A DNA stretch of 36,785 bases from a virus. The DNA is taken from IMG/VR virus record IMGVR_UViG_3300042539_001705, positions 1 through 36,785 of that record; one strand, 5' to 3'. This document shows positions 8,700-33,479 of the stretch, in pieces. Below the pieces are notes generated by a model. It did no database searches. It was not told where the DNA came from and was given only the letters and a program-made list of their open reading frames with translations. Made by a program: the position numbers and the translations under genes. The stretch's first letter is position 1; each line of letters starts with the position of its first letter.

Positions 8700-9925
8700 T
8701 ATGCGTTATCCGATGGTTTGGACATTGAAGTTTGCGTTCTGCCACCCCCGCCAACTTCTGGTATCGATCGTTTTGGTATAATACGTTTAATTGTATAATC
8801 CAAAGGAAGTCGATTAGCGATTAGTAACGGATTAATAATTTGCGATTTTGTATCGGTTATTAATTCCGTCACAATCGGGCTTAGTGACGCCATGTACGCG
8901 AGCATTGGAACTTTTCTTCCCGACGAAGATCCGAATCCAGTTGAACCGCTAGACTCCACTACTTCTGGCGGAATACCCATACCCTCGAACATTTCTAATC
9001 GTAAATCTCGCGGGTAATCCATTAAACCTTCGGGGGTAGTTGCGCCTTTAGCTGGTTCGTAATCCCAAGACCTATCGTTCTTGGCGGTTCCTGCTTCCGG
9101 TTTAGGGAATACCCTATAGCTACCAGTTTGATTGGCATCCATCATTTCAACGGCAACTTCTAAATTGGAAATTACCCTTCCGGTTGCTTCATCCGTTGTC
9201 GAACCCTCTGGAAAATAAAGAGTTCCGCTGTCATACGAATTTTTGAAAAACCACAACCGGCGAATATCTCTTGCACCGCCTAGTTGCCAAGTTTCATGCC
9301 AAGGAATATGCGCACCGTACAAACGAGACAATCCGACGAACTTATCGTGTTCGCGTTGATGTACGAAAACAGCAGATTTCGGAATTGGGACATATTTATT
9401 CGTCGAATTAAAATTTATTCCAATGAGTTTTCCGCATCTTGCTACGGGTCGTGCAATCGATGGCTTGTATGTTTCCATCGTTTTATATTTAATCATTCCG
9501 GTTTTGGGATCGCGTTCATAAATAACTTGATTAGGTGAAAAGCCCCATTCAATACATTGCATTGCTTTATACAATCCGTCGGCCCAAAAGTCATTTAGTA
9601 AATCTACGACAAATTGTTCGATGACTTTATTATTACTTTCAACTTTATGCGAATAGTAATATTCTAAATCAATGATGGCGTCGTTGATTTGCGGATCGTT
9701 AGCTTCTTCGGAGTTAAAGAATTTCGTATAAGCGTATATCGGACCTTTAATTAAATTTAATCCGAATCGTACACGACTATCTCGCATCATTAATTCTACG
9801 GTGTTGTAACCGAAGAACGGAAAATGATGCGAGTATCGCGGATCATGAAATGGCAAAATGTTATGTTGGCGATATTTAACACGATAAGTGTTTAATAAAT
9901 TAACCGTTCTTTGATGCTGAGCCAT
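8699..9925 (-). CDS. Phage portal protein
   Basis: A 408-residue protein that I assign as the portal, the dodecameric ring through which DNA enters and leaves the head. Features typical of portals related to the DUF935/Mu gp29 and SPP1 groups are the central block GFSPNQVIYERD (near 125-137), the stretch SRLYGAHIPWHETWQLGG and following helix IRRLWFFKNS, and the late segment MFEGMGIPPEVVESSGSTGF, followed by a long helix that ends near the C-terminus. Its length suits a portal. Its start overlaps the preceding tail-chaperone-like ORF by 26 bases. The position is unusual, because portals normally sit between terminase and capsid genes, whereas this one lies about 22 kb downstream of terminase. 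Confidence 0.78.
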   Translation of the reverse strand: MAQHQRTVNLLNTYRVKYRQHNILPFHDPRYSHHFPFFGYNTVELMMRDSRVRFGLNLIKGPIYAYTKFFNSEEANDPQINDAIIDLEYYYSHKVESNNKVIEQFVVDLLNDFWADGLYKAMQCIEWGFSPNQVIYERDPKTGMIKYKTMETYKPSIARPVARCGKLIGINFNSTNKYVPIPKSAVFVHQREHDKFVGLSRLYGAHIPWHETWQLGGARDIRRLWFFKNSYDSGTLYFPEGSTTDEATGRVISNLEVAVEMMDANQTGSYRVFPKPEAGTAKNDRSWDYEPAKGATTPEGLMDYPRDLRLEMFEGMGIPPEVVESSGSTGFGSSSGRKVPMLAYMASLSPIVTELITDTKSQIINPLLIANRLPLDYTIKRIIPKRSIPEVGGGGRTQTSMSKPSDNA

Positions 9926-10151
9926 ATTTATTAGCCTTACTGATTGTTAAAGCATTAACGTATTTTAATGCTTTTTCTTCATCGCCAAAATTAACTAGAG
10001 TTCCAAGTTGAAACGCCCTATCTTCATTCATCACAGGCTTAAAAAGTTCATCTAATTCTTTTTTAGCCATAATATGTCGGTACGCCAGTTGAATACATTT
10101 GAAATCAAGTGGTGTATTCGCAGCTAGCGCACCGACATCAGCAAGAAGCAT
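9900..10151 (-). CDS. Tail assembly chaperone, probable T-part reached by -1 frameshift
   Basis: An 83-residue frame with its own ATG at 10151, but lying exactly in the -1 frame of the upstream 97-residue ORF. A run of nine A residues directly before that ORF's stop would let ribosomes slip into this frame, giving one protein of about 180 residues, like lambda G-T. The sequence is mostly helical (FKCIQLAYRHIMAKKELDEL) with a basic, polar end. It overlaps the portal start by 26 bases. Independent translation from 10151 cannot be excluded. Tail chaperones hold the tape measure during tail assembly and are absent from the finished virion. Confidence 0.62.
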   Translation of the reverse strand: MLLADVGALAANTPLDFKCIQLAYRHIMAKKELDELFKPVMNEDRAFQLGTLVNFGDEEKALKYVNALTISKANKYGSASKNG

Positions 10152-10159
10152 AACCTTCT

Positions 10160-10180
10160 TTACAATTTTTTTTTAATCGC
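10160..10180 (-). promoter_or_regulatory. Candidate -1 ribosomal frameshift site (A9 slippery run)
   Basis: Read on the minus strand, the end of the 97-residue ORF is GCG ATT AAA AAA AAA TTG TAA. The nine A residues (10166-10174) contain an in-frame A AAA AAA heptamer. A slip of one base backwards skips the stop and continues ATT GTA AAG AAG GTT ATG CTT, which is the frame of the 83-residue ORF at 10151-9900. I checked the frames by coordinate: codon starts change from 1 to 2 modulo 3, consistent with -1. Confidence 0.6.
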
Positions 10181-10453
10181 ATTAATGCGATCTCTAACAG
10201 TCAGGTAAAGCCATCGGCATTGATTCGTGGTAAATTCCTTTTTGTATTTTTGTTTTAAAATGCCGGCCAATTCTTCCCAGACCGTATCGCCGCTTTGATT
10301 TGCTTTTTCGTTTGCCGTTGCAACGCAATCATCAAAATCTAGCAATTCGAATTCGATACTTTCGTTTTCGGATATTTTAACCGTTAATTTAGTATCTTCA
10401 TCTGTTGGGAGATAAACACAATTTGCGTTTGTTTGAGTTTGTTTTTTAGCCAT
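10160..10453 (-). CDS. Tail assembly chaperone, probable G-part
   Basis: A 97-residue protein with a beta-rich N-terminus (KLTVKISENESIEFELLDFDD) followed by helices (WEELAGILKQKYKKEF and LYLTVRDRINAIKKK). This fold order and size resemble small phage tail assembly chaperones. It ends in Lys-Lys-Lys-Leu-stop within a nine-base A run, an arrangement expected for programmed -1 frameshifting. It lies after the tape measure and one large tail gene, whereas in lambda the pair lies before the tape measure. The assignment rests on the frameshift layout and size rather than a recognised motif. Confidence 0.6.
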   Translation of the reverse strand: MAKKQTQTNANCVYLPTDEDTKLTVKISENESIEFELLDFDDCVATANEKANQSGDTVWEELAGILKQKYKKEFTTNQCRWLYLTVRDRINAIKKKL

Positions 10454-10465
10454 GTCTAATCTCGG

Positions 10466-13006
10466 TTAGGTGTAAAGGATCGACGAACCTGTAGATTCAA
10501 TCTTAGTTAAAATATCCTCGTTTAACAGTGATTTGTCAACGGTATAAGTTTGTTCCCAACTGGCGGCATAAATAGGGGTACTTCCTTGTAGCCCCATCGG
10601 CTTTAACATCGAACGTCCGGTGCCAACCTTAATAGCAGGGGCACCCGCGATAGAAATTACAGTTGGGATCGAGATTGGGTATTGTGCGCGAATGGCGCGA
10701 CCTTTAACAGTTACAAAATAGCGGCTCCCTTTTAACGCGTAAGTTTTCCGTATCATCGGATTTTGCGATTCAGGATGATTCGGATCGTAATCAACTAGCA
10801 AAGCTTCTGGATTATTTGGGTCAGTTGCTCCCGCATTTGCGTACATACCCGAAGCTAACCGATGTTCGGTTTCGGCGGCTGGGTCAGGAATCGATGATGG
10901 AATATCCGGCGGGGCAACAGCATTTAAATTATCGAACACGTTTGTTTCGGGATTATTAACAAATTGCCGATAAAGCTTTTCTTCGCCATGCCACGCTACA
11001 TCTGCACCGTTTAATCCTTCAACGGGAATAGTCGGGTGCGTTTCGCTAACGTGGTATTCTTCTTCGAATTTAATCCAAGAAAAACGCGGATCAATCGTAT
11101 CGTCGATTATCTCTAAAAACGATTCATCCGTATTAACGTTCTCTGCTAATTGTGGATCAGTTGAGTCTTTAAGCGTTTGATTCGTTTCTGTATTTTTAAT
11201 AAAACGCGTCGTCGCGACTTTTTCCGAAGTTATCTTACTTGGGTTTGGCATCGTGTAAGATTCAACTGGTGTATCAATATCTACATTTTCATTTTTATAA
11301 TCTGGATCTTTTTCATAACGATCTGCGATTAATGTTACGAAAGAATGACGTTGTAAATCTGTATCGTAACGACCTTCGTGTTTTTCAAACGGGTTTATTT
11401 CGCTGGCGGATTCTGTTATTTCTATTCCCGATCCATCATAAAGCATATTACTTAATGCTTGACTTTTATTAGATGGTATTGTTGGGTCAAAATTAGGTCT
11501 TGTACTATCTAGCCATTTATCCCATTGCGTACTTAATTTTTCTGGTCGATAATCTTTATTTAATTGGCCGTCTTCTGTTATCGGCATCGAATATCGACGA
11601 TGATAGTCGTTGTTTAATCTTTCGAAAAAACAAGTTGCCGAAAATACATAGTTCAACGGACAAACAACTAAGTAATCTAAATCAAATGACAATTCACGAT
11701 TAAATACATCATTTGTCAATTTGACTTTAGTGCAAATTGCTTTAATTGTATTTCGTGTTTCCGTCTCATCGTCAGTAGCAGCTTTATTTATTGCACCGGT
11801 AATTTGAGAAGCTGCTGATTTTTTAGACGTTTTATCGATAGTAAAGCTTTTTAATTTTCTTGTTCGTTGTGCGATTAAATACCAAAGAATGTACCAGGCG
11901 TAAGCGGCGTGAAAACGATTTGGTATTCTTATTTTGCCATTAAACGTATTTAGCCAAGATACCATACCGGCACCTTGCATTGCATCGCCAAACAACGTCG
12001 ATTGAACGGTATGTTTAAAATCTATTTTGCGAATTCCGTATGGAAATGCAGAATTAGATTTAATTTGTGTGAACGTTATAGAAAACTTTGCAGTTCTACC
12101 GTTCTTCTCAATGTCAAATGTTGTTTTACGCAAAAATCCATTAAATTGAGTATAAGTATCGATAGTTTTTACTTTTTCATCATCACCTAGTACATTTATT
12201 TTTGTGGATTTATTACTAATTTCAAATTGCAACTGACGCCTAGCTAAAAATAAATCAGCAGGCGTAGTTCCGTAAATTGTTCCTGAAATAATTATTTGCA
12301 GATCACTTTCTTCATCGATGTCTAATCGCATCTCAGAAGATATATCGTATTTTGCCGCCGTATCTAAATCGTAAAGCTCATACGATTCTCGCGGTCCAAT
12401 TGAATACTTTACCTTCCAAACAATTCTGAAATCATTTCCACCAGGTAATGATTGAATTTGAAGACTTAATGGTTTAGGTCCGTTGTACGTATCGACTAAC
12501 CAACCTTTCGGAATTGGTGAAGAAGATTTAGACGGAACGATATTTCGCATTTGTCCGGGGTAGTTGGATAAATCTATAACGACTCCTTGACAAGATAAAA
12601 ACGAATGTAGATATGCGATCAATCCGTTTGTATCTAAATTAGTATTATTTAATTTATTGCCGCCGCGTAAAATATTTGACGTAACTGGTCCGGTAATGTT
12701 ACTACCCGCAAAGGTGGATTCTTTATTCGAACTTACGCCGTGTATCTCACGAAACGTGTCAAGTGTTGTTACCGATGTTTGATTAACGATAGCCTCAATA
12801 GAGACAAGAATGTCTTTACGGACAATTCGCGTATCGCCTTCATCGTATTGGTTTTCACAATCGATCTTAACGCTAGTAACTGTCTTCAAACAAATACCTT
12901 CGCGAATGTCGTCAGGAATAACCAAATTTTCAATTCGCTTTTGCGTATTTAGTTTGTAAATGTAAATACTTAAAACGTTCTCATCTTGACGATACGAGTC
13001 AGCCAT
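10466..13006 (-). CDS. Large tail or baseplate protein (846 aa)
   Basis: An 846-residue protein that follows the tape measure gene after 9 bases. This is where siphophages place distal-tail and baseplate-hub genes, so a tail-tip structural role is likely. The N-terminal 350 residues look beta-rich. The middle has aromatic and helical stretches (AAYAWYILWYLIAQRTRKL), and residues about 530-770 are acidic, Pro/Asn-rich and probably flexible. The C-terminus returns to beta-like sequence (YFVTVKGRAIRAQYPI). No enzyme motif is visible and I recognise no family. The start at 13006 reads MADSYRQDEN. Confidence 0.7.
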   Translation of the reverse strand: MADSYRQDENVLSIYIYKLNTQKRIENLVIPDDIREGICLKTVTSVKIDCENQYDEGDTRIVRKDILVSIEAIVNQTSVTTLDTFREIHGVSSNKESTFAGSNITGPVTSNILRGGNKLNNTNLDTNGLIAYLHSFLSCQGVVIDLSNYPGQMRNIVPSKSSSPIPKGWLVDTYNGPKPLSLQIQSLPGGNDFRIVWKVKYSIGPRESYELYDLDTAAKYDISSEMRLDIDEESDLQIIISGTIYGTTPADLFLARRQLQFEISNKSTKINVLGDDEKVKTIDTYTQFNGFLRKTTFDIEKNGRTAKFSITFTQIKSNSAFPYGIRKIDFKHTVQSTLFGDAMQGAGMVSWLNTFNGKIRIPNRFHAAYAWYILWYLIAQRTRKLKSFTIDKTSKKSAASQITGAINKAATDDETETRNTIKAICTKVKLTNDVFNRELSFDLDYLVVCPLNYVFSATCFFERLNNDYHRRYSMPITEDGQLNKDYRPEKLSTQWDKWLDSTRPNFDPTIPSNKSQALSNMLYDGSGIEITESASEINPFEKHEGRYDTDLQRHSFVTLIADRYEKDPDYKNENVDIDTPVESYTMPNPSKITSEKVATTRFIKNTETNQTLKDSTDPQLAENVNTDESFLEIIDDTIDPRFSWIKFEEEYHVSETHPTIPVEGLNGADVAWHGEEKLYRQFVNNPETNVFDNLNAVAPPDIPSSIPDPAAETEHRLASGMYANAGATDPNNPEALLVDYDPNHPESQNPMIRKTYALKGSRYFVTVKGRAIRAQYPISIPTVISIAGAPAIKVGTGRSMLKPMGLQGSTPIYAASWEQTYTVDKSLLNEDILTKIESTGSSILYT

Positions 13007-13015
13007 AATTTTATC

Positions 13016-15835
13016 TTAAATTGAAGCCATGTTCTGATTAATTTGCCATACGGAATTTCCATTGCCGAATGACCCCTGAATACTTTCTTCTTGGCTTAGT
13101 TTGCCCATGAAGAAATCGTTTATCGATTGTACCAAAGCTGACCCTTGCGGAGCGGTATTTTTCGCCGTGTCTTCGGAATGCGTCGCAATCGAAATCAACG
13201 TATCTAACATTCGTGCAGCTAATCCGGCAAAACCGAAATTAAACGCCCCGAACATATCGCCGACCGGTGTTTCTTTTCCGCCGCCAAAGAATTTAGTCAT
13301 ATACTCAAGTAGATTGACTGCCTTCGTCAACAATTCGATAACGTCAACAATGTTATCACCAAACGCATTAATGAATGCGGTTTTTAAATCCATCAACGCG
13401 CTACTCAACTCCGTTCTAGCTTCGACAAAATCTGCCGTTATTGGATCTAGCGATTGGCCTTGTTCAAGTTGCTTTAAAAGCAAATTGATATTTTCGCCGA
13501 TTCGAGCTTGCGTTGTTTCAGAACCTAATGATTTTTCAACAACCGAATTCAACGAATCAACACCGACTTTTAATGTTTCAACGATAGGATCGATTATTAC
13601 TGTTCCAATCGCTTTACCGATAATAACGCCCCCTAATGCGCCCATCGGATTACCGCCGGATGCAAGTAAACCAATCCCGGCAGATATACCAGTGGTTCCG
13701 GCTTTGGTAGCGCTACCGCCAGCTTGAACAGCCAAATTAGCATTTTGAGGATTAACCATAAGTTGCCCTACGGTTGATAATCCTTCGGTTGCGATTTGCG
13801 ATGCACTAGCTAACGCGGTCAAACCAACGGTCAGTTGAAGAAGTCCTGCTGTGGTGGTTGACATTGCGGGCATAAGTCCGCCAGTATTACCAGATCCCCC
13901 GGTTCCACCAGACCCCCCAGATTGACCCCCGCCAAAACCTCCAAAACTGCCCCCAAAACCGCCGAACCCCGAACCAGGGGGTTTTCCCCCGCTTCCGCCG
14001 CCCGAAGCGTTTCCAGGGGCGAAATTGGGCGTTCCTGATGCGGTTATTGGGCTACCGGTTTCCGATGCGGTTTGATACTCCCTAGTTCCAGGAAAAACCT
14101 CGGTTGCCGGTCCAGGTTTTTGGCCTGTAATCGGTTGCGGTATTCCTTGTCCCGTATCGACAACTCCCCTATTCAAGATTGCTTCGATGTCAGTTTTCAA
14201 TGCTTCAACGTCAACCGGTTCTTCGGTTAACGCCGCTTGCATTTTGGCATTTTCGATTAATTCTTGAATGTCCAAACTTTGAACGGCGCGACGTTCGTTT
14301 GTTGCAGTCTTGGATCTTTCGAGTTCTTGGTATTCTTCTTTCGCTTTCTGATCGGCTTGCAGAGTTAATTCCGAAATGGCTTGTTCGGCTTGTTTGATCT
14401 CCGGTTGAAATAACATGATCTCGGCTAATGCCGTAATCATGCCACCATCGATCCCAACAGCACGACCAATACCGAACGTTGCTAAGCGTCGAATTAACCT
14501 ATCTGATTCTCCTCGATCATATTGTTCTTTAATTTGAGATTTTGCTATTCTTACCCTTTCAGAAATAGCTTCCCTCTCACGACGCCTTTTTAATATTTCG
14601 CGTCGCTTTTGAATTCCTGCTTGAAGTAATGCCCGCCGTTTAATCTGTCCGATCTCACGCGTGGCTAATACTTTTTCCTGTTGCTTTTCTTTATCTGCTT
14701 GTTTTTTCGCATTTTTAGTAAATGCTTGTTTTTGCCTACCCGCAGATATAGTAGGATCACCCGCCAAATTAATTAATGAATTCGGCGGTAATGGTTTAAC
14801 GTTTTCTGTTAAAGGTTCAGCGGGTGGTTGCGATTCACCAAATTGAAATAAAGGGTTATCCTCATCTTCGCCTTCCGGTTCGATTCCACCTGTAGCAATT
14901 GGAGGCGGCGGTGGTGGCGGTTGAATATTTTCAATTGATGGCGTTGGTTCTGTAACAGGTGTTTGCGAAGATGAACTTAATTTTAATTCAGTTATTTTAT
15001 TTCCCGCGTGCCATTTAGAATATTCAATTCCGCCTTTAATTTGTTGCGATTCATTACCTTGCCATAATTCAATCGGATATAGTCCTTCTTTTGGTTCACG
15101 TGAAAACGTAATCCCTTTATCAGAAGGTGCTATGCCCCATTTATTTTCTTTTTCGTTCCACGAAACTGGATAAATATTTTCGCCTTGAACAATGACAGAT
15201 CGTTTGGTTCCCGATACACCGCCAATCATTCCGATACTTCCGGCGGCTTTTTTATCAACATAATAAGTTATGTCTGATTTTTCTTTTTGACCAATATCGG
15301 ATGGATCGTGAAATTGATGTTCGGATTTTGTTCGAATTGTGGAATTATTTTCTAATTCGTAAACTGATCCTTTCGATGTCGAAAAACCAATTACACGTTG
15401 TTTTTCGGGATTAAGTGATTCAGTTTTAAGTTGCTTTAAATCCTTTTTAGCTTTTTTCTTAGCCCCTTCTTTAACAACCTTTTCAATTTCCGTTTTTGAT
15501 TGAAGTTGAGCTTCTAATTCAGTTGGATCAAAACTTATTTTTTCTTCAAAAGTAAGTTTCTTTTTTGGAATCCCTCTACGCGATGGTTTAGGATTCGTTT
15601 TTTCGTTAATAGCATTTTGCAATTGAACCTTGTTCATATTGTGAATGCTTTTAATACCTAAACGCTTTGCTTCAAATACTAATTCATCACGAGATTTAGA
15701 TTTTGTTATTTCGCCGGGAGTAGAAACGCTTTTAGCCCGCCCCTTTGGAGGGGCAGGCTTATCGCGTTTTTCATCATTGTCACGATTAGGATCTTCGTTA
15801 CCGCCGTTAATAAATTCTACTTTAACTCCGACCAT
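13016..15835 (-). CDS. Tail tape measure protein
   Basis: A 939-residue protein, the longest in the window, directly after the tail tube gene. Tape measures set tail length and pass through the tube at infection. Residues about 47-78 (SRDELVFEAKRLGIKSIHN...) resemble a Rho_N/HeH-type helix motif that can bind nucleic acid. A beta-rich part lies around 190-290, a run of eight prolines at about 306-312 and beyond, long charged coiled-coil helices at 370-530, and a Gly/Ser-rich linker at 610-655. The last 280 residues contain hydrophobic, Ala/Gly-rich helices (GLLQLTVGLTALASAS, IGLLASGGNPMGALGGVIIG) expected for membrane insertion. The N-terminal third is atypical for a tape measure. Confidence 0.85.
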   Translation of the reverse strand: MVGVKVEFINGGNEDPNRDNDEKRDKPAPPKGRAKSVSTPGEITKSKSRDELVFEAKRLGIKSIHNMNKVQLQNAINEKTNPKPSRRGIPKKKLTFEEKISFDPTELEAQLQSKTEIEKVVKEGAKKKAKKDLKQLKTESLNPEKQRVIGFSTSKGSVYELENNSTIRTKSEHQFHDPSDIGQKEKSDITYYVDKKAAGSIGMIGGVSGTKRSVIVQGENIYPVSWNEKENKWGIAPSDKGITFSREPKEGLYPIELWQGNESQQIKGGIEYSKWHAGNKITELKLSSSSQTPVTEPTPSIENIQPPPPPPPIATGGIEPEGEDEDNPLFQFGESQPPAEPLTENVKPLPPNSLINLAGDPTISAGRQKQAFTKNAKKQADKEKQQEKVLATREIGQIKRRALLQAGIQKRREILKRRREREAISERVRIAKSQIKEQYDRGESDRLIRRLATFGIGRAVGIDGGMITALAEIMLFQPEIKQAEQAISELTLQADQKAKEEYQELERSKTATNERRAVQSLDIQELIENAKMQAALTEEPVDVEALKTDIEAILNRGVVDTGQGIPQPITGQKPGPATEVFPGTREYQTASETGSPITASGTPNFAPGNASGGGSGGKPPGSGFGGFGGSFGGFGGGQSGGSGGTGGSGNTGGLMPAMSTTTAGLLQLTVGLTALASASQIATEGLSTVGQLMVNPQNANLAVQAGGSATKAGTTGISAGIGLLASGGNPMGALGGVIIGKAIGTVIIDPIVETLKVGVDSLNSVVEKSLGSETTQARIGENINLLLKQLEQGQSLDPITADFVEARTELSSALMDLKTAFINAFGDNIVDVIELLTKAVNLLEYMTKFFGGGKETPVGDMFGAFNFGFAGLAARMLDTLISIATHSEDTAKNTAPQGSALVQSINDFFMGKLSQEESIQGSFGNGNSVWQINQNMASI
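13870..14007 (-). repeat. Gly/Ser-rich low-complexity segment within the tape measure gene
   Basis: About 45 codons encode repeated GGFGG, GGSGG and GGTGG blocks (tape measure residues 610-655). At the DNA level the segment is rich in CC and GG tracts and contrasts with the AT-rich surroundings. It probably forms a flexible linker between the coiled-coil part and the hydrophobic C-terminal part. Such sequence can expand or shrink by slippage. Confidence 0.7.
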
Positions 15836-21506: not shown

Positions 21507-22700
21507 TTACATTTGCGACAAAAGCATTTTTTGCAATTCTTTAACTTGATCTTCCGACAAATCATCCCCGCTGTCGGAAGACATAAGAATCGTATGAGCG
21601 TCATCCGGCATTTTATGAGAATTCGGCGTTTGCTTCGGTTGTGCTGGCGGAAGCTTTTCCAAAGATTCAACAATTACGTCAATCGTATTTGGTTTAAACT
21701 TAGCATTCTCCCCGAGGGAAAGTTCGTAAATATCAATTTGCGGATAAATATTAGATTTTGCAAAATCCTCATTTACCCTACCAGTATCAATAAGGGTTTT
21801 TACGCGAGTTCGCAACTCATTTTTTTTCTGATCCGTAAACTGGCCTGTAATCGCCAACGCATACGTTTCAACCGGATCTTTCTCAATCGTAAAATCTTCT
21901 TTTACGTATGGCTTTTGCGTCTTTGGGTTGATAGCGCCGGAAGTAATAAAAACGTCGGCAACTTGCTTAGTAACTTTCATAGGTTCCTCGTGTGACATAA
22001 AAATGCTTTGAGTATTGATAACTTCCGTATCGTCTTCTTCATCTTCGGATTCGGAAAGTTTCTTTTGCTTCAAAACGGTTAACATGATTTTTGGTAAATC
22101 GGCTAACATCGTATCAGGTGGGATATAAATACCCGCATCTTCCTGTAACGCTTTAGATAATTCGCTTAAATTCTCAATGCTGGTTTCGTTAATCATATCC
22201 GAAGCAGATAACGCAACCGCGTTTTCGACAAGCGAAAATCCTTCTTGTCCTGGAACAATAGGATGAAGAACAGGGGCAACGTGCAAAACGCATGGTCCCC
22301 AACTTCGACCTTTCCCATCAACCCAGGCATCTTTAACGCAAGCTGAAACTTCTTTAATAGTATTTTGAAGTTTTCCGGCTGGCGTTTGCATATCCGCAAT
22401 ATCACCCGGCGCATCGATTACGCCGACTAACGTTGGAATATTCTTAATTGTTCGAACTTCAAACGATTCCCAGTATCCGCCGTTATCGAAAGAATTGGTA
22501 TCAACAACTTCGGTGGGAATGGCTTCTTTCAAATGTTTAAACGGGGCTGGAATTCGTAATCCCGCTTGAATCATTTTGTTCGTGTTTTCAGAAATCTGAC
22601 GAAGCAAAGTTGCGTCAAATCTTTTTTTAGTTCTTCCGCCGTTAGCAGTCGATACTAAAAATTCACCTTCAGGCAAAATTTCTTTTTGTAATTTCGGCAT
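21507..22700 (-). CDS. Probable prohead protease/scaffold protein
   Basis: A 397-residue protein upstream of the decoration and capsid genes. Residues about 1-175 have the look of Mu gpI-like or related head-maturation proteases: strands near EGEFLVSTANGG, FDATLLRQISENTNKMIQAG, VVDTNSFDNGGYWES, VKDAWVDGKGRSWG and LHVAPVLHPIVPGQEGF. The rest is acidic, Gln/Lys-rich and helical (LSESEDEEDDTEV, DLSEDQVKELQKMLLSQM), as expected for scaffolding that is cleaved and lost. A catalytic Ser/His pair could not be assigned with certainty. Its first base overlaps the stop of the upstream fibre-like gene. Confidence 0.6.
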   Translation of the reverse strand: MPKLQKEILPEGEFLVSTANGGRTKKRFDATLLRQISENTNKMIQAGLRIPAPFKHLKEAIPTEVVDTNSFDNGGYWESFEVRTIKNIPTLVGVIDAPGDIADMQTPAGKLQNTIKEVSACVKDAWVDGKGRSWGPCVLHVAPVLHPIVPGQEGFSLVENAVALSASDMINETSIENLSELSKALQEDAGIYIPPDTMLADLPKIMLTVLKQKKLSESEDEEDDTEVINTQSIFMSHEEPMKVTKQVADVFITSGAINPKTQKPYVKEDFTIEKDPVETYALAITGQFTDQKKNELRTRVKTLIDTGRVNEDFAKSNIYPQIDIYELSLGENAKFKPNTIDVIVESLEKLPPAQPKQTPNSHKMPDDAHTILMSSDSGDDLSEDQVKELQKMLLSQM

Positions 22701-27364: not shown

Positions 27365-27907
27365 TCAAACCCACAAGGTTGAGATTTCTTCGATTAGAGA
27401 TTCTTCTTTCAGTTTTCCAGAACTAATCAGGTCAACAACTTGATTTGAGAACTGTTGCCACTTATCTCGCAATTGTGATATACGTTGAAATTCTTGGTTG
27501 GCGAGTTGCTGACGATTGTAATTTTCTCTTTCTGATTGAATCCAATCAAGAGTTGGTTCTTGTAAACCTAAGTGCTGCCATTTGGGGCCGGTCCACAAAG
27601 AATATGACAAAATGAAATTTGTTAATTCTTGGGGCCATTTAGCCGAAAAAGCAATTTGCTGTATTTGCTTTTGAGCACTATCTGATGAAAGATTTGCTCC
27701 ACCATTTGAAGCTGCATTAAATACAATTTGTGCTTCAACATCTATTTTTGCTACGGACTGAACCGTACTGGCTACAAGTCGGCGATACCCTTTATCGGGA
27801 AATGCTGTTTCAATATCTTCGAACCGCATTTTCTTACCAGTTGGGATTTTAACAGTAGTAAGAAGATCATCCAAAATTTCTTGATTGGTTAAATTAAAAT
27901 CAATCAT
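27365..27907 (-). CDS. Hypothetical helical protein (180 aa)
   Basis: The frame is open to an ATG at 27958, but the start at 27907 (MIDFNLTNQEILDDLL) is preferred: AGAGGA lies 6 bases upstream and it overlaps the preceding stop by 8 bases. Residues 20-50 include GKKMRFEDIETAFPDKGYRR. A long charged, Gln-rich helix follows residue 125 (ERENYNRQQLANQEFQRISQ). The gene has no recognised family. It stands directly before the fibre gene, so an assembly or fibre-adaptor role is possible. Confidence 0.6.
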   Translation of the reverse strand: MIDFNLTNQEILDDLLTTVKIPTGKKMRFEDIETAFPDKGYRRLVASTVQSVAKIDVEAQIVFNAASNGGANLSSDSAQKQIQQIAFSAKWPQELTNFILSYSLWTGPKWQHLGLQEPTLDWIQSERENYNRQQLANQEFQRISQLRDKWQQFSNQVVDLISSGKLKEESLIEEISTLWV

Positions 27908-28124
27908 GGTTTGTCCTCTGAAATAAATAGCGGTCCAGTAGAAGGGATTCTTTTTCAAACTTGTCTAATCTTTCTTCAAGTTCTCTTTGCTTCTTCCAGA
28001 GGACATAACGATCAAATGCCTTAGAGCAGATAATCAAGAACAAGATGAATGTGACAACAATGTACCACAGAACAATTAGGTTTTCGTCAGACGCAATGGA
28101 TTCATAGTGGGTCTGTTTGCTCAT
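27900..28124 (-). CDS. Single-TM coiled-coil membrane protein
   Basis: A 74-residue protein with one membrane segment (residues 18-36, IVLWYIVVTFILFLIIC) followed by a charged helix (WKKQRELEERLDKFEKESLL). AAGGAA about 6 bases before the ATG at 28124 supports the start. The layout would suit a small holin, an inner-membrane spanin or an accessory lysis protein, but none is proven. It lies four genes after the proteases, and a second protein of the same layout is encoded at 28242-28547. Confidence 0.6.
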   Translation of the reverse strand: MSKQTHYESIASDENLIVLWYIVVTFILFLIICSKAFDRYVLWKKQRELEERLDKFEKESLLLDRYLFQRTNHD

Positions 28125-28245
28125 TTGAAGTTCCTTTGAACCAGGCGATCATATTGAGGGCGAGACGAATCGGGTTCATGTCGAAACTGGGGCACGCCAA
28201 AATCGGCTCGAAAACATATTCATAAACTACGCGGATAATATTCAT
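28102..28245 (-). CDS. Small ORF (47 aa) linking two membrane-protein genes
   Basis: A 47-residue frame found by hand. Its ATG at 28245 overlaps the stop of the upstream TM gene in an ATGA, and its 3' end overlaps the start of the next TM gene by 23 bases. The sequence begins MNIIRVVYEYVFEPILAC and continues with an amphipathic stretch and the word NMIAWFKG. It fills what would otherwise be a 117-base gap. The overlaps support translation; no function is known. Confidence 0.5.
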   Translation of the reverse strand: MNIIRVVYEYVFEPILACPSFDMNPIRLALNMIAWFKGTSNEQTDPL

Positions 28246-28547
28246 TTGGTGTCACCGGGGGTAAAATGTAATTGCAGGTCTTTGACGCGTTCTTCAAGAT
28301 GTTCGCAACTTTTCTTCAACGCCGCTCTATCGATTTCACATTCGCGTCGATATTCCTCTAATTTATCAATATGCTCTTTTCCTTTAGCGACATCTTTTTC
28401 AAGCGTTTCTATGCGGGATGTCATTAATCTCAAATTAACTCCGTAAAGACCGGCAATTACTGTAGCTAAAGCACCGACGACTACTGTTATGGCCCAAGGA
28501 ATATACGATGATAAATTACCAGAATCTTCCGGAATGGTGTTATCCAT
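28242..28547 (-). CDS. Single-TM coiled-coil membrane protein
   Basis: A 101-residue protein with one clear membrane segment (residues 15-37, IPWAITVVVGALATVIAGLY) followed by a long charged coiled coil (RIETLEKDVAKGKEHIDKLE). Two Cys lie in the coiled coil (REC and SCEH). The ATG at 28547 shares a base with the stop of the thioredoxin-like gene. A holin, spanin or membrane anchor for neighbouring exported proteins is possible. It has the same architecture as the 74-residue protein at 27900-28124. Confidence 0.6.
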   Translation of the reverse strand: MDNTIPEDSGNLSSYIPWAITVVVGALATVIAGLYGVNLRLMTSRIETLEKDVAKGKEHIDKLEEYRRECEIDRAALKKSCEHLEERVKDLQLHFTPGDTK

Positions 28548-29503
28548 TATCGACCTACTAATGAATGAAACGCGGATAGAGTTAATTCGCCAGTATGTAT
28601 AAATGTTTTATCTCCGACTTTAATTTCAAAGTACGGATATGCCCGTCGATTGTTTGTCGTCGCCTCTCTTACAAATTTATGTCCTTCTTTTACAATTAAC
28701 GGTTTAACCTCATTGCTAAATTTTATGCATGGGGGACACCCCGGCGTATTTTCGTAAACAATTTCAGCAAATGGCAAATTGGGTTTTAAGCTTACCGACG
28801 ATAACGAAGGTAAAGCTTGCCGTAGTCCTTCTAAAATTTGTTGTACGCAAATTTTTAAAGAAATACCATTTTGAATATTTTTAGCAATTAACGAGTCGAT
28901 AGGTTTTCGCCATCCATCAATCCACGGCTTTTTATCAGATTCGCCTGTTCTATTAATTAAAACTGTATCAATAGCTTGCTGCAATTTAACAGGTGTTAAT
29001 TCTTCCGAAGAATTAATTAAAATATCAAATTGATAAATTAACTTTGAAGTAGTGTCTTTATCATTAAGTTGTTTAATTAATTTTTCGGTTTCAGTTTTAA
29101 GACCCGTATCAATTACAGGTGGTTGAATCGGCGGATCAACCGGGGAAATAATAGGCGGTTTTGGCGGTCCTAGCCATGACGGTAATGTTACCTCAACTGT
29201 CCATTGCGTGAAAGCAATTTCTGCTTGTTTATCGGTAACAACCAAAATGAAGTTAAACACGCCCGGTCCCGGTAAACCAGACCATAGTTCTTTGGCTTGC
29301 TTATCTATTCGTACTGGTGTTGCAAACTTCGGGTCAACAATCCAGTCGTGATTATCGCCGATACTTTCAGCCGCCGAAAGTACCAACAATGATCCAAATT
29401 CAATTTTTGTTGGGCCGTTGATAACCGCTTTAACTTCGCCATAAGCTGTTGAAGCGGTTAATAACAAAATGGTAAATAACGTGTGTCGGAGAGCATTAAA
29501 CAT
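28547..29503 (-). CDS. Exported PKD-like/thioredoxin-fold protein
   Basis: A 318-residue protein with a signal peptide (FNALRHTLFTILLLTASTAYG, cleavage probably after residue 22). Residues 25-110 form an Ig/PKD-like sheet (GPTKIEFGSLLVLSAAES... WTVEV). A Pro-rich linker (GPPKPPIISPVDPPIQPP) follows at 112-130. The last 75 residues have a CPPC motif (256-259) in VYENTPGCPPCIKF and a later YPYF (cis-proline position), as in thioredoxin. It could form or break disulfides outside the cytoplasm, or help fold the neighbouring secreted proteins. Its start overlaps the subtilase stop by 8 bases. Confidence 0.65.
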   Translation of the reverse strand: MFNALRHTLFTILLLTASTAYGEVKAVINGPTKIEFGSLLVLSAAESIGDNHDWIVDPKFATPVRIDKQAKELWSGLPGPGVFNFILVVTDKQAEIAFTQWTVEVTLPSWLGPPKPPIISPVDPPIQPPVIDTGLKTETEKLIKQLNDKDTTSKLIYQFDILINSSEELTPVKLQQAIDTVLINRTGESDKKPWIDGWRKPIDSLIAKNIQNGISLKICVQQILEGLRQALPSLSSVSLKPNLPFAEIVYENTPGCPPCIKFSNEVKPLIVKEGHKFVREATTNNRRAYPYFEIKVGDKTFIHTGELTLSAFHSLVGR

Positions 29504-30443
29504 AATTCAGTTTTCCCTCAAGCATAAGTTTAAGAAGCTTTGTAAAATCGACAACGCCGACACCGTAAATATTATCTTTTCCGGGCGTACCTTTATCGAT
29601 AGCGTAATTAGCCAAGAATGGTCGCCATTCGCGAGCACCGCCTAATTTAGCATATCCTCGACGACGCATCCAAGATCGAAAACTAGCAGTACAACCAGCA
29701 CCATAAGGCGTTGCCATTGACGTACCACTCATTGTTCGAAATGCTTCAAGATTTCGATTATCGCAAGATACTATTTGCGTTCCGGGGAAAACAATATCTA
29801 AACGTTTTCCTGATGAACTAAAATTGCTAATACCACCGTTCTGCGCGTGCGATCCAATACATAACGTAGTTTCGTATCGCCCAGGCCAACCAGTTGTATC
29901 GCGATTATTACTTTGCCCGTCATTTCCGGCAGCAGCTAAAACCAATACATCGTGATCGTGAGCATATTCTAAAGCTTCTTCGGTGGGTAAATAAGGGTCA
30001 GGACCACCTAAACTCATAGATACGATAGTAGCCCCCTCATTAACCGCGATTTTAATTCCCTCGGCAATACCGTCTGAACCGCCTGATCCCCGGTTAGATA
30101 AAACTTTAATGTTAATTAAGTTGGCTTCAAACGCGATACCAATACCATCACGCCCTAAAGCAGTACCCGCGCAATGCGTACCGTGACCAGATTGCGGATC
30201 ATTTGGAGCTTGTCCAGAAATCATCGAACGTTCGAAAATTGGTTTCGGCAAATTTCTATGCGGACTTACACCTGTATCCAAGATGGCGATAGTCTCACCT
30301 TTGCCGGTAGCTCCTTCGCTCCAAATTTTATCCCATACGCGTTCTCGGTCGATATGCCAAACTCTAGGGGTTTCGGCACTTAAAAGCGTAATATGCTCAT
30401 CGCGAAAATCAGGGGGAGTTCCCCAAATAGGTGCTTTACTCAT
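29496..30443 (-). CDS. Subtilisin-like serine protease (S8)
   Basis: A complete subtilase fold in 315 residues. The catalytic Asp is D56 in AILDTGVS, the His is H87 in SGHGTHCAGT, the Asn of the oxyanion hole is N174 in AAAGND, and the Ser is S242 in SGTSMATP. There is only a short N-terminal stretch (about 30-45 residues) and no signal peptide, so export would need another route or release at lysis. Its start overlaps the metalloprotease stop by 8 bases. It may cleave host envelope or virion proteins; a maturation role is the alternative. No inhibitor-like prodomain is evident. Confidence 0.92.
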   Translation of the reverse strand: MSKAPIWGTPPDFRDEHITLLSAETPRVWHIDRERVWDKIWSEGATGKGETIAILDTGVSPHRNLPKPIFERSMISGQAPNDPQSGHGTHCAGTALGRDGIGIAFEANLINIKVLSNRGSGGSDGIAEGIKIAVNEGATIVSMSLGGPDPYLPTEEALEYAHDHDVLVLAAAGNDGQSNNRDTTGWPGRYETTLCIGSHAQNGGISNFSSSGKRLDIVFPGTQIVSCDNRNLEAFRTMSGTSMATPYGAGCTASFRSWMRRRGYAKLGGAREWRPFLANYAIDKGTPGKDNIYGVGVVDFTKLLKLMLEGKLNYV

Positions 30444-31188
30444 TTACGTTACCCGGAATATTCCAAATTGGTATTTGTGTGACTGGTAAACCGCCAAACC
30501 AAATTTTTAAAGAATTAAACAACGGATCATTTTTCCATGCGTCTTTCGTGAAAACCCCTGGAAGAATAGAGGCATTCATTATCCCACCACGAGAATGCGA
30601 CAAACCGCAATTATGCCCAACTTCATGCGAAAGTAATCTTGCCCATTGATTTAATAAATCGCTAGGCTTGTATACCGTGTCAAACTTAGCCCAAATTTTA
30701 GTTCGACACGTATGATTATTTCCGACAATAGCCAACCCGATCCAACCACGACCTTTTTCAAACGTAACTAAGCTATTGTAGTTCGAAGTCGTGTCGTCGC
30801 GAATAATCACTAAACCTATTTCAGCATAGGCTTGCCGCATTAAATCCCACGCTGCTTCAAACGTATCTCGAAGAAACAACGGCATTCGTGTTTTATCGAC
30901 ACGATAAACGACGGAATGATTATTCGGAAATCTGGCATCGCATCCCTTTTTCCAAGAAGTGCGAGAAGCTTGTACCCCAAAATCCGGTTGACCGCATCTA
31001 GGAATAGCAAAAAGCGAATTTATGTCTAATGTTGTAGGGCCAACATATTGACGATAACTATAAATTGCGTCTTGTACTACGGGTAAATCTAAAGACAACC
31101 GATCAACGGTAGATTCTTTAAGCTTTAAATGTCCGTAGCGAATAAGCAATCTAAGAATTTGACTTTTAGAAAAGTTGGGAGAAGACAT
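30436..31188 (-). CDS. Matrixin-type metalloprotease with cysteine-switch motif
   Basis: A 250-residue protein with the zinc site HEVGHNCGLSH (188-198) and Met-turn GGIMNAS (M204), the M10/matrixin-type signature HExxHxxGxxH. Near the N-terminus PRCGQPD (63-69) matches the vertebrate and bacterial matrixin cysteine-switch motif PRCGxPD, which keeps the enzyme latent by binding zinc. The preceding 50 residues (ILRLLIRYGHLKL... VVQDAIYSYRQYVG) look like the peptidoglycan-binding-like propeptide helices of such zymogens. No signal peptide is seen. It is overlapped by a micro-ORF upstream and the subtilase downstream. The role may be envelope digestion during lysis or entry. Confidence 0.9.
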   Translation of the reverse strand: MSSPNFSKSQILRLLIRYGHLKLKESTVDRLSLDLPVVQDAIYSYRQYVGPTTLDINSLFAIPRCGQPDFGVQASRTSWKKGCDARFPNNHSVVYRVDKTRMPLFLRDTFEAAWDLMRQAYAEIGLVIIRDDTTSNYNSLVTFEKGRGWIGLAIVGNNHTCRTKIWAKFDTVYKPSDLLNQWARLLSHEVGHNCGLSHSRGGIMNASILPGVFTKDAWKNDPLFNSLKIWFGGLPVTQIPIWNIPGNVNE

Positions 31189-31309
31189 ATAAATAAATTA
31201 TCGCGTTATCTAACATTAAATCCCACCAAGCTAGGCTATCCGACAAAGAATAACCTAGCGTAAATAACGTGACGATAATTATTTCGTCAACTTGTTTAAA
31301 AAGCATCAT
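31166..31309 (-). CDS. Micro-ORF (47 aa), hydrophobic
   Basis: This frame was found by hand. It starts at tandem ATGs (31309, 31306) overlapping the stop of the upstream gene and ends 23 bases inside the metalloprotease gene. The sequence is strongly hydrophobic (EIIIVTLFTLGYSLSDSLAWW then AIIYLYVFSQLF), so it may be a small membrane protein. It fills a 117-base gap between genes, and overlap on both sides is typical of real genes here. A short hairpin (GCTAGG/CCTAGC) lies inside it. Confidence 0.5.
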   Translation of the reverse strand: MMLFKQVDEIIIVTLFTLGYSLSDSLAWWDLMLDNAIIYLYVFSQLF

Positions 31310-31623
31310 CCGAAAAGCTGCAACAAAAGAGGCAATAGCTTTTCAAGAAATGCGAAAATCGCGTTCCAATCGACTAACGCAACCATTTCTCCGTCGCGAT
31401 CCCCAATCAATTTTTCTTCTGCGAGCTTTTCAGTCGCGGAAAGAATAATTTGTTCCTTCATGCGTGGAAACAAATTATGTTTAAAAATCAAATTGGCTCG
31501 CAAACGCTGGCGTGCCTTAAGTTGCGGAATCGCTTTTAGAATCATCTGTTCTACGCGATCACCGGTAACTTTAGCATCCCAATTTTCGGCAATAAAATCT
31601 TGTCCTAAAGCAACAGTAGTCAT
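31306..31623 (-). CDS. Small hypothetical protein with hydrophobic C-terminus
   Basis: A 105-residue protein of unknown function. Residues 20-55 are basic and helical (VEQMILKAIPQLKARQRLRA). The C-terminus is amphipathic to hydrophobic (FAFLEKLLPLLLQLFG) and could bind a membrane or pack in a coiled assembly. It follows the previous gene by 4 bases and precedes the micro-ORF with an ATGATG overlap. No motif links it to a known family. Confidence 0.55.
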   Translation of the reverse strand: MTTVALGQDFIAENWDAKVTGDRVEQMILKAIPQLKARQRLRANLIFKHNLFPRMKEQIILSATEKLAEEKLIGDRDGEMVALVDWNAIFAFLEKLLPLLLQLFG

Positions 31624-31886: not shown

Positions 31887-33479
31887 TTAGTTACGATTTC
31901 TTAAAGGATGTTTTTTTCGAGAACCTAAAGTTAGTTGCGGTGATTTATTTCGCAAAGTCGGTACATAATGAAATTTCGACTTGAGTCTAGTCGTATCGAT
32001 AACTTTCTCTAACGTGCTTGATGTAGGACCGACTTCGTTAGCAGCATCGCTAAGATTATCGATAATATCATCTGTTTCCGAAGGTAAGCCGATCCACGAG
32101 AAAACTTCGTCTTCAACTTCTTCTATGAAAGGGGCATTCATCGGAAAATATATTTTGCCATTTTTCATTAAAAGCATGGCACCAATACTATTATCTAATT
32201 TGTCCGATCCTTTGACATTTTTCTTTATCGGTATCCCCAGTTGTTGAAGATATTGCGTAGGTCCAGCACCAACCCCATTAGTTTCGGATTTTAGAAATCT
32301 AATGTTTTCATCGGTCCATTTAGTCCATAGTCGCGAAACTTCTTCGACTATCGTAGGCACTTCACAACGATCTCTCCAAAAATCTAATAAGAATAAATCT
32401 TTAGTTTTAGTTATCCCCCAAATAGATCCAACCGAATAAGAAGGGGCTTTATTATGAATTTGGTTGTCAATGATGCCTTCTTTTGCTGTAGACGCATAAT
32501 CCGTTGTTGCAAAAATAAGCTTAAATTCCTGAAAAGGAAACATTGTTCCGTTTACACGAAATCCAAACGGAAAAATATCATAATACCGAATCCAATTACG
32601 TTTAAATCGACTATCCGCCCTAGCTTCCCAATTACCGTCACGAAGTTGGGCACGAAGTTCCGGTTCGAGATCGTTTAAGAATTCTGCGTAATCAGCTAAG
32701 TCCAAGTGCGGATTATCGTTGATGTAACTTGGTACAAATTTTCGAGTGGGATGCGATCCAATAAACGGAACTCTTATTCCCGCTGTAGCCGCCGCTATAG
32801 CTTCTCGCCGATCAGGATAAATCGTCGGATCAGGAATAATGCAAAATCGTTTTTTAATCCAATTACCGCCACGACCACCGGGGTTTGTAGCGGCGCGTAA
32901 TCGAACCGGAATACTTCGTTTTAAATCGCATTCCGGGCAACCTTTAACCCAATTCGGCTCACCATCTGGCGTTTTGCCGTGAGTTTGACAAGTTGTTCGG
33001 CGAAGTCGCGTTGTCATGAACTCGTAATCTTGCGGCGTATCCCATTGCGAAATTTCGTCAAACGCAATGGTTTGATATTCCGAAGATTGATAACGGTCTT
33101 TAGCGTTAGCATCGCCGATATAGCAAAATACTAATTTTGCATCTTCACCTTTTGTTCCGTCGGGGTAATAAGTCGGAAAGCAATAAGTATGATCGCTTGG
33201 AATGTATTTAACGCCATGTTTTTTCCATTTATCTAACCATTTGCTTGCTCTATCGAGCAAAGCACCAGGTTGTTTCAAGTCAGTTAATTGTTTTCGGAAA
33301 ATTGCTGACGCATATCCAGGTACGTCCATGTATTGCAAACACGACATAAGCAAAAAATCGCTTTTACCGCCGCCTAACGCACCGCCGAACAAAAGTTCCT
33401 TGGCGTTCGACTGCAACGCGATTAATTGTTTTTCTGTAGGCTTATGCGGAATGTATTTAATCCACTTCAAAGTAGCCAA
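31887..33479 (-). CDS. terL: Terminase large subunit
   Basis: A 530-residue packaging motor. The Walker A motif is GGALGGGKS (32-40), Walker B is TIAFDE (D141 E142), the coupling block is RAATNPGGRGGNWIKKRF, and the nuclease domain begins with IFATTDYAST and includes DDIIDNLSDAANEVG. The ATPase part holds a possible zinc-binding insertion C164-x-x-H167...C181-x-x-C184. The first codon is TTG at 33479, supported by AGAGG about 9 bases upstream; there is no nearby ATG. It overlaps the preceding gene by 23 bases. No small terminase subunit was clearly recognised, though genes at 33.8-34.8 kb or the right-end basic protein are candidates. Confidence 0.93.
   Translation of the reverse strand: MATLKWIKYIPHKPTEKQLIALQSNAKELLFGGALGGGKSDFLLMSCLQYMDVPGYASAIFRKQLTDLKQPGALLDRASKWLDKWKKHGVKYIPSDHTYCFPTYYPDGTKGEDAKLVFCYIGDANAKDRYQSSEYQTIAFDEISQWDTPQDYEFMTTRLRRTTCQTHGKTPDGEPNWVKGCPECDLKRSIPVRLRAATNPGGRGGNWIKKRFCIIPDPTIYPDRREAIAAATAGIRVPFIGSHPTRKFVPSYINDNPHLDLADYAEFLNDLEPELRAQLRDGNWEARADSRFKRNWIRYYDIFPFGFRVNGTMFPFQEFKLIFATTDYASTAKEGIIDNQIHNKAPSYSVGSIWGITKTKDLFLLDFWRDRCEVPTIVEEVSRLWTKWTDENIRFLKSETNGVGAGPTQYLQQLGIPIKKNVKGSDKLDNSIGAMLLMKNGKIYFPMNAPFIEEVEDEVFSWIGLPSETDDIIDNLSDAANEVGPTSSTLEKVIDTTRLKSKFHYVPTLRNKSPQLTLGSRKKHPLRNRN

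Follow-up and report, generated by a model that had tools for sequence, protein, structure and literature searches.

A cysteine-switch pro-matrixin and an exported partner at the core of an apparently transferable phage gene cassette, with a possible role in envelope attack

Phage lysis is generally understood as the cutting of peptidoglycan. In Listeria, a pair of proteins of phage origin, the secreted metzincin Mtz and its TIMP-like lipoprotein partner Tim, raises the sensitivity of the cells to phage lysis in a protease-dependent manner (PMC8235301). Here we describe a protease gene cassette in the virus record IMGVR_UViG_3300042539_001705 of IMG/VR. The stretch analysed (the window) is the entire record, a linear fragment of 36,785 bp whose left end cuts through an open reading frame (ORF) and whose coding lies almost wholly on the minus strand. 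The cassette is an overlapping run of genes for a matrixin-type metalloprotease, a subtilase, an exported protein with PKD and thioredoxin domains (PKD-Trx), a single-transmembrane (single-TM) coiled-coil protein, a 47-aa ORF and a second single-TM protein; in this order adjacent genes overlap by 8, 8, 1, 4 and 23 nt. A first-pass annotation of this DNA had recognised a compact run of a matrixin, a subtilase, an exported PKD-thioredoxin protein and two single-TM coiled-coil proteins as a candidate lysis or envelope-attack module, and this arrangement was confirmed on the minus strand. The present analysis is more specific, in that the enzyme can be described as a putative cysteine-switch pro-matrixin and the cassette as an apparent travelling unit.

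The matrixin carries the zinc site HEVGHNCGLSH (aa 188-198), the Met-turn MN (204-205) and a switch-like motif PRCGQPD (63-69), and it has no signal peptide. Only sub-threshold metzincin matches were obtained in Pfam (M10 at E 0.054, below the cut-off). Searches of IMG/VR with the single matrixin, subtilase, PKD-Trx and terminase proteins gave no match, and INPHARED contained no relative of the matrixin, PKD-Trx or the major capsid protein (MCP). Relatives were found by a degenerate zinc-site pattern applied over IMG/VR followed by profile searches, and 16 sequences were aligned. H188, E189, H192, H198, M204 and N205 are invariant throughout the alignment, as are two further cysteines, C83 and C161. 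At the cysteine switch, R64 is present in 15 of the 16 sequences and C65 and D69 in all of them, with G66 and P68 variable; no search pattern covered these residues. A proposed set of four invariant cysteines was not upheld, as C194 is kept in only 10 of 16 sequences and the search pattern itself had required Cys194, which introduces a bias.

The profile built from the 16 sequences matched the human pro-matrix metalloproteinase pro-MMP-1 in the PDB at 4.2e-6, over the prodomain, the switch and the zinc site. An AlphaFold2 (AF2) model of the matrixin was obtained with a predicted local distance difference test (pLDDT) of 86 and a predicted template modelling score (pTM) of 0.84, and its top 17 PDB matches by Foldseek were without exception pro-MMPs, in alignments of about 250 columns that include the prodomain. 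The peptidoglycan (PG)-binding family PF01471 was matched below threshold only, three of the four weak matches falling in matrixins. Since the switch residues are conserved outside the search patterns, and since both the profile and the fold matches lead to pro-MMPs, prodomain included, the protein appears to be a zymogen-type metzincin with a PG-binding-like helical prodomain, built like a vertebrate pro-MMP. We propose, from the conserved motif and the pro-MMP-like model, that a Cys65-zinc switch keeps it latent. The best match to the model in BFVD was an uncharacterised phage protein, A0A6J5RTD2 (32 % identity, template modelling score 0.81), which looks like a true member of the phage matrixin family; the MMPs of insect viruses followed far behind. 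No description of phage pro-MMPs was found in a limited search of the open-access literature, which is not proof of absence. At one related locus, L114, the matrixin frame is broken into three overlapping ORFs (9461-10479), a frameshift or a decayed copy.

The most constant neighbour of the matrixin is an exported protein. In the window this is PKD-Trx, with a signal peptide called by eye (MFNALRHTLFTILLLTASTAYG-E), a PKD domain, a proline linker, a helical domain and a thioredoxin-like CPPC domain. The best fold matches of the PKD domain were other PKD domains (ColG PKD, E 1.2e-4), and in the AF2 model the CPPC motif sits in an alpha/beta C-terminal domain. The window protein matched the partner-family profile at 8e-60, this profile having included the window protein. 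Of 17 loci, one of which is a prophage-like contig of the planctomycete Thalassoglobus, 16 have a gene of the exported partner next to the matrixin, 14 by clustering and two by weak profile matches, and L114 has an unscored candidate. Common to the family are a signal peptide, often a PKD domain, a proline linker and a helical domain. The fusion to a CPPC thioredoxin was seen in the window and in L103, a locus of a diverged phage (record G003); in L032, L106, L111, L092, L105 and L115 a separate CxxC protein or domain follows, in L111 a thioredoxin matching PF13098 at 1.6e-8. The window PKD-Trx is thus a fusion of the exported partner family with a thioredoxin that is separate in other phages. 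As judged with crude predictors in 11 records, the sequence up to 3 kb from the matrixin is enriched over the remainder in exported proteins (9.4-fold density, p 1e-8) and in small TM proteins (3.1-fold, p 0.002). In L112 (11247-12119) and L115 (5604-6743), the matrixin is followed by a protein with CxxC and, by eye, a stretch like an S-adenosylmethionine-dependent methyltransferase, an odd combination.

The subtilase has the catalytic triad D56/H90/S242, with the motifs conserved in the window and L103. By phmmer its PDB match is KerA at 7e-38, and it is 31.7 % identical to the protease of Moorella phage MTATph1. It has neither a signal peptide nor a recognisable prodomain, and its N-terminal tail reads APIWGTPPD. 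The pairing of the two proteases, which the first-pass annotation suggested looking for in related phages, recurs in L103 in the same order. Beyond that it did not hold up as a general feature: the subtilase is present in only 2 of the matrixin-carrying virus records, and for this reason the core of the cassette is the pro-matrixin with its exported partner and not the protease pair. Any step carried out by the subtilase is an add-on of the window phage and one other, most relatives being without it. In both pair-carrying phages a PIWxxP motif occurs twice, at aa 240 and 245 in the C-terminal tails of the matrixins and at aa 5 and 4 in the N-terminal tails of the subtilases; the sites lie at 30410-30480 in the window and at the same junction in L103, at about 5450-5520. 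The motif could serve both enzymes as a docking or inhibitory peptide, or be due to chance. Close to the matrixin of the subtilase-less L117 (10871-11767) and L118 (12405-13316) is a protein whose CW motif is papain-like, a possible alternative second protease. Its assignment to papain family C1 was not sustained, as it gave no match to Pfam C1 and only E 0.0018 to mexicain in the PDB, and it is kept as a lead only.

The order matrixin-subtilase-PKD/Trx-TM-TM is the same in L103 as in the window, and its conservation in so diverged a phage makes the cassette more than a chance arrangement. The matrixins of the two are 42 % identical, the subtilases 53 % and the PKD-Trx proteins 31 %. G003 otherwise shares with the window one weak 73-aa fragment of a further protein, and no capsid gene. 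The reverse was found in record G002, where terminase, portal, capsid and capsid-protease-like genes resemble those of the window (31-39 %) and the matrixin alone (44 %) is common to the two cassettes, without a subtilase. Because G003 shares essentially the cassette only, and G002 the virion genes without the subtilase, the cassette appears to be a travelling unit that moves independently of the virion genes. Being kept across unrelated virions and changing within related ones, it is unlikely to be part of capsid maturation. Phages do use proteases in head assembly, and the possibility that the two enzymes process virion proteins had been left as an alternative in the first-pass annotation. 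It is disfavoured, since the cassette is common to phages with unrelated virions, and G003 has the proteases but shares no capsid gene. Moreover, a presumptive capsid maturation protease or scaffold, so named from its position and a motif and with no Pfam match above the cut-off, is already in the usual place, just ahead of the genes for the decoration and capsid proteins. We therefore regard virion maturation as highly improbable. A function in entry, with the proteases carried in the tail or inside the virion to clear host surface protein during infection, would suit the large fibre or adhesin genes found nearby in the window and its relatives. The same sharing among unrelated virions speaks against it, however, and the signal peptides of the partners are what one expects of proteins made in the host cell and exported from it, not of packaged ones, so that this explanation is very unlikely. 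Two of the related phages, G004 and G008 (L124-L129), have Pfam matches to a 5-hydroxymethyldeoxyuridine (5-hmdU) DNA kinase and a TET-associated glycosyltransferase, which suggests hypermodified DNA in these phages.

In genome collections the sole clear match was to Thalassoglobus neptunius KOR42 (Planctomycetota), on a prophage-like contig bearing terminase-like and portal-like genes, both labelled by eye. The matrixin family was found over most of its length in 1 of 392 planctomycete genomes searched; as this one match lies on a contig with phage-like genes, the family is taken to be phage-borne. The match ties one relative to planctomycetes, not the window's own host. An NlpC/C92-like gene upstream in Thalassoglobus was considered and dropped, having no Pfam or PDB match. 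The prophage-like copy, the exported parts and the travel as a unit would fit a module for host interaction or lysogenic conversion (phage exclusion, an altered surface, or attack on neighbours or predators) rather than lysis. Against this, the cassette of several relatives has late genes as neighbours, for terminase or for head or tail fibre proteins, and the proteases have no signal peptide, for which reason they would need the cell to be opened in order to act outside. A role of this kind is considered unlikely.

The first-pass annotation had recognised none of the usual endolysins in the window, and this was borne out by searches with hidden Markov models over the window proteins and 15 related virus records, in which none was found. 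No match to SLT, Amidase_2, Phage_lysozyme, CHAP, M15_4, M23 or NlpC/P60 was obtained in six-frame translations of the 16 virus records (the window and the 15 related records, about 0.81 Mb, all classed as linear). A single Amidase_2 match was located elsewhere in the Thalassoglobus genome. Among the window proteins no conventional endolysin was detected with PHROGs (all proteins) or Pfam (nearly all), one PHROG label aside. This label, phrog_938 'endolysin', fell on residues 150-299 only of a 939-aa protein (13016-15835), against a profile of 2185 positions and with no Pfam or PDB support, and was rejected; the protein is a possible tape-measure, its residues 736-842 matching a 2.4-kb gene of G002. 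Whole-Pfam searches contained no endolysin among the matches listed for G002 and G003 (down to E about 1e-6) or for G004 and G008 (down to E about 3e-10), and none for G009, G016 and the remaining window proteins (complete at 1e-5).

We regard as the strongest rival to a lytic role an accessory one, in which the pair of matrixin and exported partner loosens the envelope, or frees a fragment of the partner, and most of the wall cutting falls to a separate, unrecognised endolysin. It ranks first among the rivals because the Listeria pair does its work in the presence of an ordinary holin-lysin set, downstream of whose genes Mtz-Tim is encoded in prophages (PMC8235301). The constancy of the exported partner as neighbour agrees with an accessory role, as does the chance that the virus records are fragments. 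The absence of seven endolysin families from all 16 records, and of any endolysin from the whole-Pfam matches listed for several of them, counts against it, and an accessory role is somewhat unlikely, while deserving serious consideration.

The reading we favour, to which we give about an even chance, is that of a transferable phage envelope-attack cassette, likely acting in late lysis, with the latent pro-matrixin as effector. What stood of the module first proposed is that the locus is real, conserved and accompanied by no endolysin that could be found; its core, however, is not the protease pair. Lying beside terminase and tail genes, the cassette would be expressed late. The PKD/thioredoxin partner, given its predicted signal peptide, would be exported by Sec to the periplasm, and the matrixin and subtilase, having none, would build up in the cytoplasm, the prodomain and the Cys65-zinc switch keeping the matrixin inactive. 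One or both of the single-TM coiled-coil proteins might then pass the proteases through the membrane. Furin cleaves the prodomains of some animal MMPs. Outside, cleavage of the prodomain, with the neighbouring subtilase as candidate enzyme, could likewise open the switch, or the exported CPPC protein might do so through thiol chemistry. The active matrixin would cut envelope proteins until the wall fails, possibly guided by the PG-binding-like domain and the partner. Both window TM proteins have a predicted holin-like topology, with an excess of positive charge C-terminal of the membrane segment, and for the longer one, upstream in the run, the charge pattern suggests an N-out/C-in topology. 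This protein gave sub-threshold coiled-coil matches only in Pfam and PHROGs, and it is weakly Rz-like (phrog_739, 0.005).

Several observations weigh against a lytic role. The bonds that typical matrixins cleave are ordinary peptide bonds and not the cross-links of peptidoglycan, and an endolysin may lie in missing parts of the genomes or belong to an unrecognised family, the records being classed as linear and possibly fragments. No holin family in Pfam or PHROGs was matched by the window TM proteins above the cut-off; they also fail to align with those of L103, to which they are similar in shape but not homologous. Up to 3 kb from the matrixin no small-TM gene was found in 5 of 11 records, many relatives have a separate thioredoxin or none, and no lipoprotein partner of a spanin was seen, with no lipobox by eye. 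A bolder version, which we hold to be doubtful, is that a phage lineage, at least partly of planctomycetes, has given up its endolysin and lyses its hosts with the pro-MMP, which would leave through a small membrane protein and be activated outside by the subtilase or an exported thiol oxidoreductase, this activation cascade serving as lysis clock. If a lytic role is true, there would be a protease-based route of lysis, and bacteriophages would be shown to use the cysteine switch of MMPs. Two questions become testable, namely how planctomycete phages leave their hosts and how old the MMP design of prodomain and cysteine switch is.

The features are collected in Table 1. Two small genes (85 and 105 aa) lie between the terminase large subunit and the matrixin; the 105-aa protein has no significant likeness to the 89-aa protein encoded next to the matrixin of L102, and its membership of the cassette was not supported. 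The hydrophobic micro-ORF that the first-pass annotation had included in the run is present, but it has no homologue in Pfam or PHROGs and no counterpart in L103, and is treated as unproven. On the 3' side the cassette is followed by one further gene and then by the gene of a large fibre-like protein. At its cut end the window contains a uracil-DNA glycosylase fragment (1-306, PF03167), followed by a thymidylate synthase (567-1643, phrog_85).

Table 1. Features of the cassette and its landmarks in the window, with the basis of each assignment
Feature	Position	Strand	Basis
Putative pro-matrixin, 250 aa	30436..31188	-	Alignment of 16 relatives, PDB profile match, AF2 model, fold search
Subtilase (S8), 315 aa	29496..30443	-	PF00082 2.9e-40; PDB phmmer; L103 homologue
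Exported PKD-Trx protein	28547..29503	-	Partner-family profile, AF2, Foldseek
Single-TM protein (TM 19-37), C-terminal coiled coil, holin-like candidate	28242..28547	-	TM/topology prediction; family matches sub-threshold
47-aa ORF overlapping both flanking TM genes	28102..28245	-	ORF list alone; no Pfam/PHROGs family match
Single-TM protein, 74 aa (TM 16-34), charged C-terminal helix, holin-like candidate	27900..28124	-	No family match above cut-off
105-aa protein, hydrophobic C-terminal tail	31306..31623	-	Possible cassette member by position only
47-aa hydrophobic ORF of the first-pass annotation	31166..31309	-	Unsupported as gene
Terminase large subunit, upstream landmark outside cassette	31887..33479	-	phrog_979 8.4e-53; 39 % identical to G002
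397-aa protein, presumptive capsid maturation protease/scaffold, landmark	21507..22700	-	G002 and G009 homologues before MCP

Compared with known systems, the phage matrixin shares with the vertebrate pro-MMPs (MEROPS M10A: pro-MMP-1, -3, -7, -9 and -10) the helical PG-binding-like prodomain, the R-C...D switch, HExxHxxGxxH and the Met-turn. It is only 18-20 % identical to its best matches among them, however, has neither signal peptide nor hemopexin domain, and possesses the extra invariant C83 and C161. The MMPs of ascoviruses, granuloviruses, nudiviruses and entomopoxviruses are matrixins encoded by viruses too, and were among the BFVD matches of the model, but they come from eukaryotic viruses and match less well than A0A6J5RTD2. 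Intracellular subtilisins and phage subtilases (phrog_3677; Moorella and Bacillus phages) have the same S8 domain without a signal peptide, whereas the coupling to a pro-matrixin was found only in the window and L103. Canonical holin-endolysin-spanin cassettes resemble the locus in their compact overlapping genes, an enzyme without a signal peptide and small TM proteins; the window differs in having proteases, no recognised peptidoglycan hydrolase and an exported PKD/Trx partner. With Mtz-Tim it has in common a phage-derived metzincin beside an exported partner, the effect on envelope and lysis being shown there and proposed here. Going by the descriptions, the two are set apart in that the window metzincin lacks a signal peptide and has a cysteine-switch prodomain, and its partner is a PKD/helical protein with no lipobox by eye. 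Even if the cassette were only accessory, it would extend the metzincin-partner theme of the Listeria phages to a different branch, with a zymogen lock added.

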